Below are positions 6,459 to 54,699 of a stretch of 64,000 nt of DNA, one piece after another. The stretch covers positions 18,657,419-18,721,418 of the forward strand of contig OY987243.1 of assembly GCA_963920765.1 (NCBI GenBank). Reading direction: 5' to 3'. The notes under the pieces were generated by a model. The model searched no databases, was not told the origin of the DNA, and saw only the letters and a program-made list of their open reading frames with translations. The stretch's first letter is position 1, and each line of letters begins with the position of its first letter. This stretch comes from Ulota crispa. Lineage: Eukaryota; Streptophyta; Bryopsida; Orthotrichales; Orthotrichaceae. The position numbers and the translations under genes were made by a program.

Positions 6459-7432
6459 CTTTCAACCCCCTTGTCCTAAAACCAGCTCATTTTCTTCCTC
6501 CTCGTCGTCTATCCACTACACCTGAGTTGGCCTCTCATCAGCTCTGCAGCTCTTTTCAGCAGCTTTCATCTCGCTGCCGGTGTACAGGAGATCTCCTCCT
6601 CCCTTCCTGGTTGCAACGTCTCCAAGCAAAGCTCTGACTCTGACTTGCTCGAAGCTCATCAACGTGACTGCATTGCACCATGTTTCCTTTTGTTAGTGTG
6701 CTTGTTCTATTGCTAAGTAGTTTCTAGTGTAGGTTATCAATCCTTGGCTATCGGGTGTCTGATGGTTGCTACATCGGAAGTTGGGAAAGACTAACGATTG
6801 AGCGTCATGACTTGAACATCGCATGTAATATTTAATCGAATATCTTTTTGCACTGGCTACAATAGACCATACTAACGATGCATGCATGAAACTCAGAAAC
6901 AATACATGCATTGCTCCTTGTCTGGGTGGATGTAAAGGTACATCATTTTTGTTGTTAGTGGAGTTTGTGGAATATAATCAATATATGAGTGCTCTGTATA
7001 TCCACATTGCTTGATTTGGAAGTACTTATGTGTTGCTTGAACACCGCGTGTACTTTTTAGTCAGTAAATCATTTTAGCATCAATACTGTGGTCGACACTA
7101 AATCACTAATGACAGTCTTTTTGCAAAGAAGTTATGGAAAGGAGAAGGTGAGACGGGGGGTATATTGATACATATTCCTTGTGATTGCACTTTCTCCGTG
7201 AATGTCCAGCAAAAGTTGTGTGATTATCTTCATGCAAGGGAAGTTTAACAATTGCTGTTATAATGCGATTGTCGATTTGTGGAGTGATGTCTGAGTGTGA
7301 CAATCATTGAGTTGTCTTTAGAGTTTGAGTATCTGGTGCTGACATTTGGATAGATGTTTCTGGTTCGTAAAACCTGATATTAATGTTTGTTTTGTGATTT
7401 TGACTTTGTGTAGTTTCCAGAACCGCAGCGAC

Positions 7433-9062
7433 ATGGCTTCGGCACCCAAGGCCACGGGCCTACTCGTGGTTTCCCTTGCTCTCTGCCTGTCTGTCGTGCA
7501 CGGACTTTCACCAGAGGAGCCAAAGCCAGTGGAACGAATCCAGGCAGCATTCAAGGAAGTCACGCAGCTCTCGGACGACCTTCGAGTGGAAACCCAGAAG
7601 ATCACGCTCTTCAATGCTGCCGAGAAAGGGGTGAAAATCACAGCCGGCTTCAGCACCATCATCGTGAAGGTCACGGAGTACACCGCCAGGTTGGCCGGCA
7701 GTGCCTATGGATACGACCCATCACCGCTCAACGACGCCGACGCCAAGCTGGTAGTGCAGAGCCTCACTACGTTCGTGAAGGTCCACCAGGCGCTCCTCAA
7801 CGTGGTGATCGGGAAGCACGGCCTCGCCACTCTGTTCCCCTTCTTCGAACCGATTCGAGTGGCGCTCGTCAACTTGGAGACTGTCATCGACACTTTCGCC
7901 TTCTACCTGATCGATCTCATCCCGACCCAGAAGCCCGCCGCCAATGACCAATTCAAGTACTTCCGCATACCATATATCTCTCTCAATTCTGTCTAGGAAA
8001 GAAAATAAATTTGTACTCCTAGCTGAAGGTTGTGTAAGAGCAGATGGGATAACCAGCAGGTCTCGTGTTTCCTCGCTAACCTCAGAGTTTGCCACCTGTT
8101 AAACTTCCTTCTTGAGCAGGTGATGTGGACAGATCTCTTGTTTCGAATGGCAGTGGGAATTTGAGACTCTCACACAGAGATTCGCAAATGAGACCCGTAT
8201 GGGGCTCGTCCTAAGCAAGCTTGTTTACTTGTATCCGATTGCGTTGGGTTGGTTGTCAAGTTTTGTCCCCAACTAATGCACAATGTTCTCTGGCACGGTT
8301 TTCAGATCGCTGTCTATCACGGTGAAAGACGCTGAGTCAACATACAGCAACGCCCTGGTGGCCGCGAGCTTGGCGCAGATCCAGACTGGAACTCCTCTGG
8401 TGGATGTGATCACGGGTGCCATCAAGGAGATCACGGAGCTCTCCGACAACTTCCGCACGGAAACCGCCAAGATCAACAACCTGAACGCGCCGAAGCAGGG
8501 GTTCAAGATCGCCCAGGGCTTCGCCGTGATCATCACCAAAGTGACCGCCGCAAGCACGGCCTTGGCTCCCGGTCCAGCCGGCGGCAACCCGAGCCCGCTT
8601 GACGACGACGCCGCCAAGCTGGTCGTGAAGAGCCTCACGACATTTGTGCAGGTTAGTGGCGACATTCCCCTGCAACAACATTGACTAGTAATTACTAGCG
8701 ATGTCGGAATGGCTAATTATTTTATCATTCGAGGCTTCCTGACGTGTAACTGGGAATGTATACGTTCGGTGTGAAATCAGGTCCACCAGGCATTGCTGAA
8801 TGTAGTGATCGGGAAGCACGGCGTGTTGACGCTGATCCCGTTTATCGAGCCAATTCGACTTTCGCTCGTGCAGTTGGAGCTCGTGGTCGACACGTTCGCA
8901 TTCTACCTGATCGGTCTCATCCCCACTCAGAAGCCCACTGCCACTCTGGAGGTTCAAGCTTTGGACGTCACTATTCGCTCTGCCGTAGACACTTACAGCA
9001 CGCCCCTGCTTTCCAAGACCTCCATGGCCGCGCACGCCATTGAAAGCCTCATCGCTCACTAA
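7433..9062 (+). CDS. Secreted protein with two tandem HsbA-like domains
   Basis: Three exons, 7433-7956, 8306-8651 and 8781-9062, give 383 residues. Intron 1 (GTACTT...TTTTCAG) splits a lysine codon; intron 2 (GTTAGT...AATCAG) is phase 0. Residues 1-24 are a signal peptide ending SVVHG. Domain 1 is about 29-203 and domain 2 about 204-383. Both share the order LSD(D/N)(L/F)R.ET.KI, the motif ALLNVVIGKHG, TFAFYLI.LIPTQKP and a final (D/S)TYS helix, and both lack cysteine after the signal peptide. This pattern matches fungal HsbA / cell-wall galactomannoproteins, helical secreted proteins; Aspergillus HsbA binds hydrophobic surfaces and recruits cutinase. The start is the ATG just after the 7420 acceptor; an upstream in-frame ATG at 7346 lies in the intron. 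The exon-1 frame runs on to a stop at 7994-7996, so retaining intron 1 would give a 187-residue single-domain form. Coding GC is far above the flanks. The family call is from memory of the pattern, not a search. Confidence 0.78.
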
Positions 9063-9377: not shown

Positions 9378-9383
9378 AATAAA
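9378..9383 (+). terminator. Poly(A) signal of the HsbA-like gene
   Basis: AATAAA lies 316 bp after the stop codon, in a region followed by repeat DNA. The distance is reasonable for a plant 3'UTR. Confidence 0.5.
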
Positions 9384-9487
9384 GGTTGAGTGTTAATGTT
9401 TCTACAGAATGTTGGCTGTCAGAATTGTGATGAGTGTAAGGGGAATTAATTCCTCACTGGTTGGTTAAGGACCTATGACTTCCTGAG

Positions 9488-9811
9488 AGCATCTCCACCA
9501 GTGGCTCTGGCTCGCTCAAAGCGGATGAAATGTAGCCAGGCCCTTCTCAGATCCCGCTCAAATTCTCTTATTTGGCAGGTCTAACAAGCCACTCTCCAAG
9601 CCACTCTCCAAGACACTATTCATGCAATATTCACTCTGAATTTGGTGAGTTTCATTCTCTACTTCCTTAGATAAGTGGTCAATTGCTTATTTTTGGGGTG
9701 TGTTTGAGTGACAAGCCACCTTTTCAAAGAGCATGGGTGGAGATTAGGAGCCTTCATGCCTCGCCAAACTAGATGGAAAATTTTGAGCGAGTTTGGACTG
9801 GTGGAAATGCT
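9488..9811. mobile_element. MITE with ~30-bp inverted ends
   Basis: The left end AGCATCTCCACCAGT...CTCGCTCAAA is matched in inverse at the right end (complement AGCATTTCCACCAGT...CTCGCTCAAA). The element is about 324 bp and non-coding. No clean target duplication was found, so the superfamily is left open (hAT or Harbinger type). Confidence 0.6.
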
Positions 9812-32439: not shown

Positions 32440-33520
32440 AATTTAGAATCTTTAAGGATCTTTTGGGAATTTTTTGGGAATTTATGGGAATCTTTAAGAG
32501 TTGAAGAATCTTTTGGGAATCATTGAAAATCTTTTCAAGAAGATTTTAAGAATATTTAAAAATCTTTTCAAGATTTTAGAATCTTTGAAATTTTTTTTAG
32601 AATCTTTTAAAATCTTTTAGGAATCTTTGGAAATCTTTGGGAATCATTTCAAGTTTTTCTAAAATCTTTGAGAATGTTTGAGGACAACGGAGAATTTTCT
32701 TAGAATCTTTGAGAATCTTTTAGAAATCTTTGATAATCTTTGGGAATCTTTGGAAATCTTTAAAATCCTTTTGAAATTATTTTAGAATCTTAGAAATGGT
32801 TGAGAATGTTTGAGAATCTTTGGAAATCTTTGAAATTCTTTGCGTGTCTTTTTAAGTTATTTTGGAATCTTTGAGAATGTTTGAGGAGAATTGAGAATCT
32901 TCTTGGAATCTGTGAGAATTGTTTAGAAATCTTTGATAATCTTTGAAAATCTTTGAAAATCTTTGAGAATTTTTTCAAGTTTCTTTGGAATCTTTGAGAA
33001 TGTTTGAAAGTCTTTGGAAATCTTTGAGGATCTTTTTGGAGTCTTTGAAAATCTTTTAAGAATCTTTGGGAATTTTGGGGAATCTTTTCAAGTTTTTTTG
33101 AATTCTTTCAAAATGTTTGAGGACATTTGAGAATCTTTTAGAAATTTGTGAGAATCTTTGGAAATCCTTGGAAATCTTTTGAAAAATTTTTCAAGTTTTT
33201 TTGGAAGCTAAAAATATTTGAAAATCTTTTTAGAATCTTTGAGAATTCTTGAAAATCTTTGAGTACAGTTTGGAACATTTGAAAATCTCTGGAAAAATTT
33301 TAGGAATTTTGATTTTTTTGAGAATTTTGGAAAATCTTTAAAAATCTTCTTAGAATCTTATTAGAATCTTTTTGGAAGCTTTGAGAATCTTTAAAAATCT
33401 TTGGGAATCTTTGGGAATCATTTGAAAATCTTTTTGGAAATTTTAAATATCTTTGAGAATCCTTGAGAATTTTCAAGAACCTTTTTAGAATCTTTGAGAA
33501 TCTTTTTAAAATCTTTACAA
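32440..33520. repeat. Subterminal degenerate repeats (AATCTTTGRGAATC)
   Basis: About 1.1 kb of closely spaced variants of GAATCTTTGAGAATCTTTGG, period roughly 11-14 bp. In CACTA elements such arrays are transposase-binding sites; here the role is inferred from position. Confidence 0.75.
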
Positions 33521-34469
33521 AATTTGTTAAAATACTTCAAAATATTCATAGAAATAGAATCTCTTATATTGAATTAGAGTTTTTTAGGAATCTTTTTGTA
33601 ATTCATCAAAATATTTTAAAATATTTTTACTAAAAATAGTACTACAACAGTTTAGGTTTGTTTTTGAAATCTTTCTAGAATCTTTTTGGACCTCATTGAA
33701 ATGCTTTGAAGTTTTAAAAAATAAAAGAAATTTTCATTACAAATAGAATCTTTTAGAAGTTTGAGTGTACATTGACTAGTTTTATTTTCTTTACTTTTCA
33801 CAACTTGGTTAGATTTAAAATTAGCAACCTTTAAAATCAAGTAAAAACATGCCTATAGTAACAAAAAAATCAACAATTTTTTGTTGATCTGGACACTTTT
33901 GAACACAACTTCACTAATTCAACAAAAAAATTTATAAAAAGTACAACATTTTATTGTTTTAAATACCAAAATTTCTTTACAAACAAATATAAAAGATGCT
34001 TTTCAATTCTTTGTAAAAATCATATATGTCCCTCAAGGATTGAAAGTACCAAAATTATCTTTCCTTTTTGTATAAATATCAACAATGCTTCTAATATATT
34101 GGGAAAATATTAAAAATGCTCCTCAATTATTTTAAATTATTTATATCTTTGTTTTATATGATAACCATGTGTATAGTTTAATGCAAATTCTTACAAGAAA
34201 CCAAAGGTGATTTTTACATTTCAAATAACACAAAGATATATCTAACATTTCAAAATAGAAAAGCTTTTTTGTAATTTTTCCAATATAATAGGAGTATAAT
34301 TGATACTCCTACAAAAAATAAGGAATATTTTTTATGTCATATATTTTTGGCGTAAACTTGATATTTTGAAAGACTTAAAGGGTGTTTTTAGTATTTTTCC
34401 TTCTATTACTAACCAAATGAATTAAAAAGAAACCAATCTTATAAAATACTTTTATAAGCTTTAAAAGAT

Positions 34470-43605: not shown

Positions 43606-45246
43606 TTACTGAAGGTTCTCATGATACTTTTGGAAATACCCCTTATGCCAGCACATAAACTTATTGTCACATAATGGACAATAAGTTTTAGGGTGTGTTA
43701 CTGGAAGGGATCCATCGTTACATACAACGCATGGGCCCCTTGTAGAAGTAGTTGCCGGAAAACAAACTTTTCAATGTAGTGTTCCATTTGGCAAAATCAG
43801 TTTAGGGTTCCAATTTTGTGTAAGAGCTTCACAAAGTTGGGTTCTAAACTGCAAATGCGTCATTGGAGGAGGGGGAGGAGTACAATATTTACACTTATCA
43901 AAGTAAACAATGTACATGTTCATGATGGTTGTATCAATAAGAAAAAAAATACCCTATGCTACCATTTGTGAGACCGAGTTTGGCATGAGTAGGATGCCCG
44001 AAGTTAATCCGCCACATCAGCTCCTCTCATATGTGTAGTATACTCAACGAGCATAGGAGATGTAGGAATTTCCTTGCGTACTGCACAATTACGTCGCGGT
44101 ACTTTCACAAGAGGAAATTCGCCCAGAGATTGTAATGGAACCATGTGCGTGGAAAGAATAAACACAAGCCTCTTATCCTTCCACAATATATCACTAATAG
44201 ACCTAGATTCGTGCATTTGCCATACTAAATTGCCTTGTGCACTTTTGGCAAAAAAATTTGTATTTTTTAAAATTAAAGGAAGTCCAATTCTATTTGCCCA
44301 TACAGTTCTCGTAGCATATATGTGGTTTTTTAATAATTCTTGGAAAAGAGGTATGCTAGTTAAAAAATTATCCATAATTATGACATGACCCCAACCCTCA
44401 TATATAGACAACAACTGCAAGACGACATTGTGTGTTAATTTAGGGTGACCATGTAATAATATGGCTTTGTTTGTTAAAGTAGAATCTTTTCCATAGTACA
44501 CCTCAAAATTTGATACAAACTTAGAAACCAAATCCGCTAAACACCACACTTTAATTCCCAATTTTTCTAGCTTTTGTGGCATATATTGTTTGGTTGGGCA
44601 ATAAGAACCTTTATATCTAATCATCATCTCATCAATTGTACCAAAACTTGTCAACATTCCATGACGACTAACAAGTTTTCCTAACTGCATCTAGCAACCA
44701 TTGTACTTGTCCCATTTTATCTTACCCTGGTAATTTTTTATCTTGAACATAAGTTTGTGAATTTGTAATATGTAAACACCTAGTTAATAAATTGAAGCGT
44801 CCTTGAGACATTGGGTTTGAAATTATTGGACAATAAAAAAATGTACCTTTTTTTACTAGTATGATTTTAGGTTAGGTTGTTTTTTCATTCCCATATACAA
44901 CAATTGCGATATAGACTTGTAATTCTTTTACAATAAATTCAATCCAAGATGAGCCTCCTTTAGTATTTCCCTTTGAGTCAAGGGCAGTGGCATACCTATC
45001 AGTCTCCGTGACAATATTGTGCAATGTAGCAAATGGCCAAAATACTCCAAATAATTGAAGAAACGACGGGAAAATCCGCCATGAGACATTCAATGAAGAT
45101 GCCCCCATAAAGTTCATGTGCTGAGGATCATAAGTAATAAAATCTTCATTCCACGACTCCTCCCAATAGATATGCCTGAAGTTCTGTTGGCCTTCTACAT
45201 CAACACTGTTGTCATTGATGTCTTCATTATTGACAACGTCATCCAC
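43606..45246 (-). pseudogene. Decayed piggyBac transposase
   Basis: Pieces in piggyBac order run leftward. Codons at 45246-44872 hold the N-terminal region with IVTETDRYAT and WIEFIVKELQVY. The 44690-44004 frame holds the catalytic core: IDEMMIRYKG (Asp20 of this 228-residue piece), IIMDNFLTS (Asp107) and WKDKRLVFILST (Asp172), so all three catalytic aspartates are present. Next comes SHKWWHRVFFFLID, near 43960. The C-terminal Cys/His zinc-binding domain (CVVC ... YCPLC ... CWHKGYF) ends at a stop at 43606. Between the first two pieces there is an in-frame TAA and a frameshift, and more shifts follow the core. It is not functional as it stands. piggyBac elements use TTAA targets, as do many elements here. 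No introns are evident. Confidence 0.85.
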
Positions 45247-47835: not shown

Positions 47836-49439
47836 AAGTGTGAGTCCTAGATTCAGCACCAAAAGTTTTGAATTTATTTTTCATTTTACTTAGCTTTGAA
47901 ATCACATCAATATAAGTGGAATAGCCATTTATGTTGATTTAGAGTGGTTAGACCAAATGGTTAGCGGCACGCCATTTACCCTACTCCAATTTGGTGAGTT
48001 GTTAGGAGCAATTCGTGAGGTTTTAGTAGTTTTTAGTTAGTTTGAGTGACATACATACTAGGGGCTTGGGATCCCCTCCAAAAGTCCCTACTAACCTAAT
48101 TAGAGAGGGTTAGTTTAGGAGTAGATTAGTTACGCTACGGCCAAGGGCCACATCATCAGTTTACAACCTGACATCTATCAGCAACAACATTTGGTGCGTC
48201 TATATCTAAGGTGCCCAATACCTTTAACTCCTTAGAGAGCGTGAGTCCAAGCGGTTAGCCCTGCTAGGCTATTGGTCAACCCCGATAAAAAGAGGTTGAC
48301 AAATGGCAGTAAAATGCCATCAAAATTCATGGAAGAGTTTCTCAAGGATTTATGAAGATCCCCCAAGTGTCAAGTCGGTTTGATAGCGGCAGGACCTTAA
48401 ACAACAACATCCATCCAATTTCAAGACAGCTCGCAACATCCAATTTCAAGATATCATCAATTTGGAGCCCCATTGACGAAAGAAAGGAGTATTTTCCAGC
48501 TCTCCTGACAATGTTGGAAGACCTTGAAAAGTCGATTTCTCAATTTGGGATGAATTCCCAATTTTGGATTTTTCATCCATCCATCTCTAACTCTTCATTC
48601 AAGTTTCTTGATGCCCTATAGCTTGGAATTGGAAATGTGAACAATCAAAACCAACTATCTTAGATCCAAGGAATCCAATGCCATTGTCTATTTGTTGTTT
48701 GGAGCTACGTTCCAAAAGTTATGGCAAATTCATCCAGATTTCATCCATTTTTTAGTTTTCTTAGATTTTAGATAGATTTCAAGGGATCTATGGATCTTCT
48801 AGATAGAAGGCCAAGGTGTCCTCCCTCAAAAGTATAAAGGGAGGCCCACCTCCTCCCAAACCATCACTTTGATCATCACTTTCTTGTTTTTAGATCATTC
48901 AGTACTTGTAACCCCACCCCTCTTCACTTGTTGTCATTTGGATCCATCATTCTCATTATTTCCTTGTTTTTTGGTTTCTTAGCCTCCTCCCTCACTTGGA
49001 CCCACCTCTCCTTAGACTTGATACGTCTCTTTTAATTAGAATTAGAAGTTTGTCCTACTAACCACTAAGGGGTTGGATTACGACTGGCGATGCCGCTTTT
49101 CCACACCTCTTAGAAGTCCTAGCTAGTCATTGTGGTTCTTGTCAGTCCTTAGGGTTGCAGTCAGATAGACATCATGGTCCATAGCCGTTGCTTACCACTC
49201 TCTTACCAGTACCTTACCAGAACTTCGTTCTTGCATCATCATTGCATCGCAAGCCCTCCTAGCAGCTGTGGGGGAATCCTGATAGCTCAGCCTCACGTTG
49301 GCCAGCTCCCTTGATTCCACAAGCAAGCTCTTTGAGAAGTTACTTTGCTAACTAAATCTCTCCGCTTGAGGCCTAGCCTTGTCCTTGGCACTTGACATGA
49401 CCCATCATCCCCAACTATCAACCGCCTTTTCCAGAGACT

Positions 49440-50240
49440 GATTTCCTAGCATCCTCATTTCTAGTCGAGCCCCATTGCCCCTCACAATTCTGAGCCCAGC
49501 CTTTGGCCTCCCACGATCAGTCAAGCCCTGCTGTTCTTCACAATTATGAGCCCAGTTTTGGCCTCTCCGATCAATCGAGCCTCTGCTGCCCCTCATGATT
49601 TTGAGCTCAGCTCTTGGTCTCCTCACAATTAGTCGAGCCTTTGTCTACCCTCTCTCAATTTTGAGCTCAGCTCTTGGCCTCTTACGATCAGTCAAGCCCT
49701 GCTGCCCCTTTCAATTCTGAGCTTAGCTCTTGGCCTCTCACGATCAGTCAAGCCCTGCTGTTCCCTCACAATTCTGAGCCCAGCTCCGGTCTTCCCCGAT
49801 CAGTTGAGCCCTTTGTCTACCCTCTCTCAATTTTGAGCTCAGCTCTCGGACATTCTCACGATCAGTTGAGCCCTTTGTCTACCCTCTCTTAATTCTGAGC
49901 TCAGCTCTCGAACATTCTCACGATCAGTCGAGCCTCTGTCTACCTCTCTCAAATTCTGAGCTCAGCTTCGGTCTCTCCGATCAGTGAGCTCTGCTGTCTG
50001 CCTCTTTTGAATTCTGAGCTCTACTCTTGGCCTCCTCTGATCAGTCAAGCCTCTGTTGTCCCCTCACAATTCGGAGCTCAGCTCTCGGCTCTCTTTGATC
50101 AGTCAAGCCTTTGTCTTCTGCCGCAGTCGCAAGGCCCCTCTTTGAGGACCAGCTAGCTGGATAGAGCCAACCGGGTACCAGCGACCCAGTCACTGGGTCT
50201 CCAAAACCTCGGCCCTTCACCTCCAGCAAGCCAGTCTTTG
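49440..50240. repeat. Tandem array in the left arm (~55-62-bp unit)
   Basis: About 13 diverged units built on CACGATCAGTCGAGCC, then a variable CTGCTG or TTTGTCTACC segment, then TCAATTCTGAGCTCAGCTC. GATCAGT motifs fall at about 49517, 49687, 49742, 49797, 49860, 49922, 49979 and 50039. Confidence 0.85.
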
Positions 50241-52249
50241 AAGCTCCGAATCTGCCGTCCCTGCCAAGCAGGAGGTCCCCCCCTCTTAAGGGAAATTTTG
50301 ACTTTTTAGAATTGTTTACTCAAGCCTTAAAGGTCGTTACCAAACATTTGGCTTAGTGTAAGTAAAACATACCTTGATCCAAAGTACAAGGGACTCTCAT
50401 TATTTGGACTAGACATTGCGTCATAATAAGCGCGTATAACTACAACCGTCATACTTTCAAACCATTGACCAAACAAGAGGATATTCCTCGGCATCCAAAG
50501 CACCATTGCGGCTATCCAAGGATTAATGTAATTCTTGACCTACGCAATTGGGAGCCGGTTTATGTTGTGATTATTCGTCACAAGGTAATAACATAAATTG
50601 GGCCACTAGGAAGGGTCCACTTAACAATCCACTAGAGTGCTGTGATTATTTGTCTTTAGAATAGAAACGCAACCAGTTAAGCCAAGTACCACCACACCCA
50701 CGCTCAAGGAGGAATGGAGGTTGCCCAAGGCCACGCAATGGGGTATGTGGAGCCCCACAACAAGGTGTGATCACTCACGTTCCCATTTTGATTAGCCAGA
50801 TCACCAACGTGCAAAATACTAAGTAGATTGTTTTCTTCTTTGTTCATCATTGTATGTTGTAGACTTATTAGAAAAGATCCATTGCTTTGAAGGCGTCTTT
50901 AGTTGGAAATCTACAAACAAACCCACCCTCTTGCTATTATAGTTTTTCCCGTTTTCTTAGAACCCGGTTGTGCTTGCGATTACTTCAAAGGGTTTGAACA
51001 CTCACACAAAGCTTTAAGCTAACCGCTTGAATTAGGAGTTATTGGTTATAAGTGTCATGCACCATATTAGATACATAATAAATACATAAATAAATAGTAA
51101 TAATGAAAAAAAAAAAAAAAAAAAAACTTAAAAATTTCAGAACAGCAGCTAGAACTCGATGGAAAAGGAAAAGACGTGTTTACTTGCTGCTACTATTTGG
51201 ATGGGACTCCCGGAACCATGGACTTGAGCCTCTAATCCGCTCTAGTCAGGTGTGAGTGCTCAAACATCCCCTTGAAAAGTAAGCGCAAGCACAATTGGAT
51301 TCTAACAGAATTGGAAAATGGGCATAAAACAGCAAGAGGGTGGTTTTGGTTGTAGATTTCCAACTAAAGATGCCTTCCAAATAATGGATCTTTACTAATG
51401 AGCCTACAACATGTAATGATGAACAAAATGGCACTATATCCCTAAGGAGCTGGACGTCGTCCTAACGTGGCTAAGTGTGAATAAAGTGGAAAGCGGGGTG
51501 ATCATACCTTGTCGTGGAGTCCGTTATGCCCCATTGCCTCACCATGGATGGCCTCCATCTCGTGGTTGGGAAGTAATTACCTCAAGCGATTGGTAATTCT
51601 CAATTATTGACAAATAATCACAACACTCTACCGATGGTTGGATCAAAGGTTCCTTAGTGGAATGGCTTGCCTCTTATGCTTGTGACAAATAATCATGACA
51701 TTAACTAGCGCTAAGGAAGGAGGCCAAGAAGGTACTTGACCACACTTAGTTAATCACAATAGTATCCCTGGCAACGCAAGTGGACTTTTTCCCTGCTTCA
51801 CATGCGCTATGACGGGTCCATTGTTTGAACTATCAAGTTATAACGCCACATCAATAAAAATCTAGGAACAATGTATTGAAGCATGCAAAGAATAATTAAT
51901 CAATTCTAGGATGCCTTAGCTTAGAGATCCGCACTTCCAACAATTGAGTTAGGTGGGCTTTTAAAGCTCTGTCCTTCCCTTCAAACTTGGGAGAGATCAA
52001 GGAGGCTTGAAAGGTGAGAGTTGAGGCCCTGGATGTGGAGCCTTGGAGGCCGGTGCCCAAAGGTTGAAGGCGTAAAGTTGAGATTCAAAGGCCGCGGGTC
52101 GAGAGTCAAGGGCCTAAGGCTGCAAGTGAGGCGATACTTGGCTGGATGGTGCGCGGCGTTGGTTGATACCCGATGCTGGTACTCAGTTGCCGTCGGAAGG
52201 AGACTCAGACCGTAGGTAAGAGCTCGGACTTGAGTTGAAAGGGGCAAGC

Positions 52250-53140
52250 AGGGACTAGCTAGCATGAGAATGCGTGAGTTCAGACTCAAAATTGAGAGGG
52301 ACGACAAGATTGTGACTGGCGTGAGAATGCCGAAGCTAGACTCAAGGGACAAGAAAGGCGATAAGGCGTGATTGGGTGAGAATGTCGAAGCTCAGATGAG
52401 AGAGACGACAGGGCTTGACTAGGGGAATGCCGTGAGCTCAGACTCAAGGGACTGAGAGATGATATGGCTGTGACTGGCGTGAGAATGCCATGAGCTCAAA
52501 CTCAAAATTGAGAGGGACACATGGCTTGATTGGCGTGAGAATGCCGGAGCTAGACTCGAGGGACAAGAGAGACGACAAGACTTGACTAGGTAAGAATGCC
52601 AGAGTTCAAACTTGAGAGACGACAGGATGGTGACCGGTGTGAGAATGCCGTGAGTTTAGAATTGAAATTGAGAGGGACAACAGGCTTAACTGGGTGAGAA
52701 TGCCGTGAGCTCATACTCAAAATTGAGAGGGATAAGGCTTGACTGCGTGAGAATGCTGGAGTTCAGATTTGAAATTGAGAAAAACATGGCTTGATTGGCG
52801 TGAGAATGTCGTGGGCTCAGACTTGAAATTGAGAGGGATAACAGGGCTTGACTACATGAAAATGCCGGAGCTCAAATTTAAGGGACAAAAGAGACAATAG
52901 GACTTGACTGGGTAAGAATGCCAGAGTTCAGGCTCGAGAGACGACAGGACGGTGATTGGCGTGAGAATGCCGGAGCTAGGCTCAAGGGACAAGAGAGATG
53001 ACATGACGTGACTAGGTGAGAATGTCGTGAGCTCAAGCCCAAAATTGAGAGGGACAGGGTTGACTGGCATGAGAATGCCGTGAGCTCAGACTTGAAATCG
53101 AGGGGGACACAAGGCTTGACTGGCATGAAAATACCAAGGG
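52250..53140. repeat. Tandem array in the right arm (~55-bp unit)
   Basis: About 16 units of GACTGGCGTGAGAATGCCG, GAGCTCAGACTCAAAATTG and AGAGGGACAACAGG-like sequence. This is the complement of the left-arm array. Confidence 0.85.
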
Positions 53141-54699
53141 CTAGACCCGCAGGTTGGAGGAGCAACAGCTGGTTGGAGACAATGGGAAATGCCACGTGCC
53201 AAAGGAATCCATGGGCAGGGCAAGGCTAGGCTTCAAGCTGAGAGATTCAATTAGCACAGTGTCTTCTCAGAGAGCGTGCTTGTAGAATTGAGAGAGCTGG
53301 CCAGTGTGAGGTTGAGCTATTAGGATTCCTTGAGAGTTGCTAGGAGGTCTTGCGATGCAATGACAAGGTGGTGGCAAAGTTCTAGTAAGGTACTGGTAAG
53401 CTTATCACTTCTAGAACACACAGCAAGGGGCGGCTCTCTACTAAAGTGGGATACATGTGGGCAAAAATGGAAGTAAGAAGGAGAGAACAAGGCACAAGTG
53501 AGGAGAGGTGAGGGAAGGGCTCTAGGAGTGAGAGAGTGGGTATGGAAAGAGTACAAGGGGTCTAACACAAAAAGTCATGATAACAAGTGATGGTAAGTGG
53601 CCTAAAACAAGGAAGTGATCATAACAAGTGATAAGAGGTGACAAGTAACCAAGGGAGTGTTGAAAATGATTACAAGTGATGGTTTGGAAAGAGGTGAGCC
53701 TCCCTTTGTACATTTGAAGAGAAAACCTTGGCCCTCTATCTAGGAGATCCATAGATCCCTTGAAATCTACCTAAAATCTAAGAAAAACTCAAAATGGATG
53801 AAATCTTGATGAATTTGCCATAACTTTTGGAGCGTAGCTCTAAATGACAAACAAACGGTGGCATTGGATTCCTTGGACCCAAAACAACCATTTTTGGTTG
53901 TTCACACTTCCAATTCCAAGCTACAAGGCGTTGGAAAACTTGAATGAAGGGTTAGGGATGGATGGATGAAAAACCTAGAATTGGGAATTCATTCCAAATT
54001 GAGAAATTGACTTTCCGATGTCTTCTAACGTTGTTGAGGGAGCCGAGAAACACTCCCTGCTTCTGTCAATGGGGCTCCAAATGGACGATATCTTAAAATT
54101 GGATGTCGAGCAACTTCTTAAAATTGGATGGATGTTGTCGTTCAAGGTCTTGCGGCTATCGAACCGACTTGACACTTGGAGGATCTTCATAAATCCTTGA
54201 GAAACTCTTCCATGAATTTTGATGGCACTTTACTGCCATCTGTCAACCTCCTTTGACCAAGGTGGATTGGTAGCCTAGTAGGGTTAACTGCTTAGAATCA
54301 CACTCTCTGAAAAGCGGAAGGTCTTGGAAACCTTGGGTATAGACGCACCAAATTGACAATGTGACTTGGACTAGGTGATGTGGCCCTTGGCCATGGCATA
54401 ACTAATCTACTCCTAAACTAACCCTCTCCAATTAGGCTAATGGGGATTTTTTTGGATCCCAAGCCCTAAGTATGTGTGTCGTTCAAAATGACTAAAAACT
54501 ACTAAATCTCACTAAACCTCTCCTAATGACTTACCAAATGGGGTAGGGTAAATGGCGTACCACTAACCATTTGGCTTAACTAATCTAAATCAACATAAAT
54601 GGCTATTCCACTTATATTAATGTAATTTCAACGCTAAGTAAAATGAAAAAAGAAATTCAGGACTTCTGGTGCTGAATCTAAGACTCACATTAGGCAGCC

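Follow-up and report, generated by a model that had tools for sequence, protein, structure and literature searches.

A gene of Ulota crispa predicted to encode a secreted protein with two tandem Mp1p/HsbA-type domains

We analysed a stretch of 64,000 nt from the land plant Ulota crispa (contig OY987243.1, positions 18,657,419 to 18,721,418), in the following called the window. In the genome that we examined (274.8 Mb, 157 contigs) it corresponds to C2:18657419-18721418. At positions 7433-9062 of its forward strand the window carries a gene of three exons that yields an open product of 383 amino acids, with GT/AG at all intron borders. The original prediction had described a 383-residue protein with introns, a signal peptide, a TATA promoter and a duplicated domain of the fungal HsbA type. 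The gene comprises the following features (window positions):

7433..7956, + strand: exon 1, with start codon, signal-peptide-like stretch and most of repeat 1
7433-7504, + strand: signal-peptide-like stretch within exon 1 (residues 1-24), from hydropathy
7529..7956, + strand: modelled part of repeat 1; four amphipathic helices predicted, fold like the lipid-binding domains of Mp1p and Afmp4p
7957..8305, + strand: intron 1 (349 nt, GT..CAG), late in repeat 1, with no counterpart in repeat 2
8306..8651, + strand: exon 2, in which repeat 1 ends (at about 8378) and the first half of repeat 2 follows
8400..9059, + strand: repeat 2, interrupted by intron 2
8652..8780, + strand: intron 2 (129 nt), in repeat 2 at TFVQ/VHQ, with no counterpart in repeat 1
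8781..9062, + strand: exon 3, with the second half of repeat 2 and the stop codon (9060-9062)
9378..9383, + strand: AATAAA, a possible polyadenylation signal by sequence motif

Two splice models preserve the reading frame. The one given here was preferred because it places after the junction residues (SLSITVKDAESTYSNAL) that match the end of repeat 2 in the alignment. With it, the protein length and the introns of the original prediction were recovered. Its signal peptide holds as a secretion-type start judged by hydropathy: the N-terminus is strongly hydrophobic, the mean over nine residues reaching 3.0 (windows from residues 10 and 11), and it is followed by a plausible cleavage site, VHG/LS. 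Such a start would direct the protein out of the cell. For the predicted mature chain we calculated 359 residues, a mass of 38.5 kDa and an isoelectric point of 5.7. The 383 residues include a single cysteine, which belongs to the signal-like stretch, and lack N-glycosylation motifs. A TATA promoter could not be confirmed: the only candidate motifs, TATATT (7161) and TATAAT (7259), lie roughly 170 nt or farther upstream of the start codon.

After the signal-like stretch the protein consists of two repeats of about 165-180 residues each. In agreement with the proposed domain duplication, 95 of 165 aligned residues are identical between them (58%). At the codon level the proportion of synonymous differences (pS) is 0.56 and that of nonsynonymous differences (pN) 0.28, corresponding to a dS of about 1.0 and a dN of about 0.35. 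Since pS exceeds pN, the protein sequence was constrained while the repeats diverged.

Decayed copies of the 5' part of the gene are present on three other contigs (C8, C7 and C3); the matched part of each contains a single in-frame stop. Beyond these three, no further copy was found in the genome at E<=1 (six candidates scored). One of them, L006, matches window 7352-7782 with 349 of 425 ungapped positions identical. At the protein level it is nearer to repeat 1 than to repeat 2 (about 75% vs 47%), and it carries the donor site CAG/GTTAGTG exactly at the position of intron 2. The simplest reading is that intron 2 was already present in the ancestral domain and later disappeared from repeat 1 of this gene. 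The two other decayed copies, L007 on C7 and L008 on C3, have about 2 kb in common (1569 identities, 168 mismatches, 416 gap positions). The shared stretch includes sequence outside the gene, and the gene fragments have therefore spread within a larger duplicated unit.

Directly 3' of the gene, at about 9482-9700 and perhaps beyond, lies a repeat of which near-full copies, 81-87% identical, occur on C1 to C10. This search gave 870 first-look candidates, of which 40 were scored, and included some inverted matches; the repeat is probably a small DNA transposon.

A plant-type genome had been proposed for this DNA, with contamination by a fungus as the case that would overturn it. The LOB family, which we take to be a streptophyte family, gave 22 matches in this genome and none in 14 control genomes, in line with the proposal. 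The GC content at third codon positions (GC3) of the gene is 0.768, compared with a median of 0.77 (range 0.47-0.98) over 13 LOB matches taken from the 18 stop-free ones, a rough yardstick as LOB genes may be GC-rich. A foreign composition, which would have hinted at recent transfer, was thus not seen. Placing the gene on its longer contig, as had been suggested, located it at 18.66 Mb, mid-way in the 36.98 Mb contig C2. We rejected contamination on account of this position, the decayed copies on three other contigs and the copies of the 3' repeat on C1 to C10, which exclude it as far as one assembly allows. Given the mid-contig position, the LOB-like GC3 and the decayed copies elsewhere, the gene appears to have been in this genome for a long time.

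We then compared the protein with family profiles. The sole Pfam match above threshold was PF17615 (C166), with 86.3 bits for the whole protein (curated cut-off 36.7) and 54.7 and 42.3 bits for the single repeats (50.8 and 44.1 with other borders). Among 248 stop-to-stop open reading frames of >=60 aa in the window we scanned the 150 longest (>=70 aa) minus 13 others that overlap the gene. These 137 frames gave two Pfam families at E<=0.01: PF17615, from this gene, and a piggyBac transposase. Throughout the genome PF17615 matched this gene alone at E<=10. The HsbA family PF12296 reached 24.6 bits for the whole protein (E 3.8e-5), below its curated cut-off of 33.5. Both repeats matched it below threshold, with 16.8 and 19.4 bits, or 16.8 and 19.7 with other borders (E 0.0012-0.0097), and on the same stretches as PF17615. 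A genome-wide search with PF12296 gave nothing at E<=0.001 and therefore misses even this gene. Neither C166 nor HsbA matched the reversed or four shuffled copies of the protein at E<=1.

The predicted structure of repeat 1 shows the all-helical fold of the Mp1p and Afmp4p domains, with a weaker likeness in another model comparison. All seven top rows of the structure comparison belong to one family, of the Mp1p/Afmp4p/HsbA type. From the 58% identity, repeat 2 would be expected to fold in the same way. The HsbA label of the original prediction is thus probably right in fold, though not by the Pfam threshold, and marginal by sequence.

With moderate confidence we favour the reading that the protein is a secreted, bivalent, Mp1p-like carrier or scavenger of lipids outside the cell, at the plant wall and cuticle. 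A single intact land-plant gene would give rise to a secreted protein with two tandem all-helical Mp1p/HsbA-type domains. In each domain, amphipathic helices would pack around a hydrophobic channel, and by this fold the domain could hold a long-chain fatty acid or a cutin- or wax-like acyl chain. Two domains per chain would provide two binding sites, such that the protein could carry or scavenge lipids extracellularly.

Several observations weigh against this reading. Helical bundles can give high Z-scores by chance in structure comparisons, which slightly lowers our confidence in a lipid carrier and slightly raises that in convergence. In sequence, the relation to HsbA appears only marginal: the NCBIfam model MerTP, surely a spurious hit, matches the whole protein at E 3.6e-8 and the single repeats at 0.00067 and 0.0039, and the single-repeat HsbA match is no stronger. 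Scores of either kind add up over the two repeats in the whole-protein value. The MerTP match, however, spans 40 residues, and in repeat 2 the HsbA match extends over almost the full domain.

Convergence would mean that the protein is a helical bundle of the plant lineage, unrelated to HsbA and Mp1p, and that its true family is Pfam C166, of unknown function. C166 being the only match above threshold speaks for this, as do the chance Z-scores of helical bundles and the readiness of the protein to pick up weak, unrelated hits, such as DUF6389 at E 0.001, a spectrin model at 0.058, Abi_C at 0.094 and, for the reversed protein, Baculo_PEP_N at 0.0076. Two routes, sequence profile and fold, nevertheless point to the same family, to which the seven top structural rows belong, and the PF17615 and PF12296 matches coincide on the same stretches. 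We therefore regard convergence as doubtful.

Adsorption in the manner of HsbA of Aspergillus oryzae, with the protein coating hydrophobic surfaces and recruiting a secreted esterase instead of carrying lipid in a channel, appears unlikely to us. The fold and the weak PF12296 match would suit it, and HsbA is described in PMC5872309 as bringing lytic enzymes to hydrophobic solids. The fungal-type cutinase family PF01083, however, gave 0 matches in this genome at E<=0.001 in an exon-wise search (2 candidates scored; other esterase families, including those acting on plant cutin, were not searched), and the recruitment of cutinase put forward in the original prediction is thus not supported.

Descent from an archaeal-virus gene, as the Pfam name would suggest, can be dismissed as highly improbable: SSV1 C-166, the Sulfolobus virus protein after which C166 is named, scores 262.7 bits against the same PF17615 model, but the plant protein reaches 22.7 bits against C-166 itself (11 of 37 identities in one short stretch, single-comparison E 0.006), none of its six weak matches to PHROG families (E<=1, best 0.0087) is to phrog_8228, to which C-166 belongs, and C-166 is by eye a proline-rich protein with hydrophobic ends and no repeat pair. 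Since the model recognises the plant protein, which is yet hardly similar to C-166, PF17615 most likely mixes the virus protein with plant-like, unrelated sequences. Its name and the apparent virus link probably mislead annotation.

Returning to the lipid carrier, we tentatively consider that a land plant took the HsbA/Mp1p-type domain from a fungus and duplicated it, and that the resulting bivalent secreted protein is used at the plant's own surface, for the transport of cuticle lipids or the capture of lipid signals on contact with fungi. If such a transfer took place, the decayed copies and the differing introns of the two repeats would record an event old enough for normal plant composition to be attained. 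Searches by tblastn confirmed no relative in the collections viral_contigs (74 pattern matches) and genome_contigs (36 pattern matches), where scans rely on short exact peptides and neither plants nor fungi are covered. Among the matches listed for the open-licence literature, judged by titles and the starts of abstracts, we found no report of such a gene in plants; those on PF12296 concern, by title, fungi or soil microbes. If fold and function hold, a land plant makes use of a lipid-binding domain known from surface and virulence proteins of fungi, arranged as a pair like that of Mp1p. The gene would then be a test case for fungus-to-plant transfer, and in cuticle biology its product would be a candidate for an extracellular carrier of acyl lipids.

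Other elements were seen elsewhere in the window. A piece of a piggyBac-type transposase lies on the reverse strand at 44007-44690 (PF13843, E 5.4e-30; reading frame assigned by eye). The genome holds at least 120 piggyBac matches (116 of 528 candidates scored), most with stops and some being pieces of one copy; to our knowledge piggyBac is rare in land plants. At 48508-54034 we found a large inverted-repeat structure with outer arms of 316 nt (85% complementary), which may be a foldback-type element. It encloses two minisatellite arrays, at 49476-50109 and 52397-53132, in which the unit measures about 56 nt. At 32446-33533 there is another array, AT-rich and about 1 kb long, whose periods include 10, 41 and 203 nt.

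Compared with known systems, the protein shares with Pfam C166 the above-threshold match of both repeats, and with the protein that named the family one short weak stretch. Afmp4p (5j5k, 5j5l), presumably from Aspergillus, has a fold like the one predicted for repeat 1, at 15% identity in model 2; its solved chain is one domain (151-152 residues). HsbA is of the secreted type, as is predicted for the plant protein, and both repeats of the latter give a sub-threshold match to its profile. The plant protein differs in staying below the curated cut-off, in having two domains and in coming from a land plant; most fungal HsbA proteins have one domain according to PMC5872309. Mp1p of Talaromyces marneffei (LBD1 and LBD2; PDB 5e7x, 5ecf, 5csd, 5fb7, 6j6f) resembles the predicted fold of repeat 1 at 13-14% identity in model 2. 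For Mp1p, a table in PMC4999278 gives a Ser/Thr-rich stretch, a glycosylphosphatidylinositol anchor and a gene without intron. The plant protein ends in TPLLSKTSMAAHAIESLIAH, with 13 serines and threonines among its last 60 residues and by eye no hydrophobic tail, and two introns interrupt its gene. Palmitic and arachidonic acid are ligands of Mp1p (PMC5488042, PMC4999278), which contains a pair of lipid-binding domains; the two repeats of the plant protein, of which repeat 1 was modelled, may correspond to this pair.
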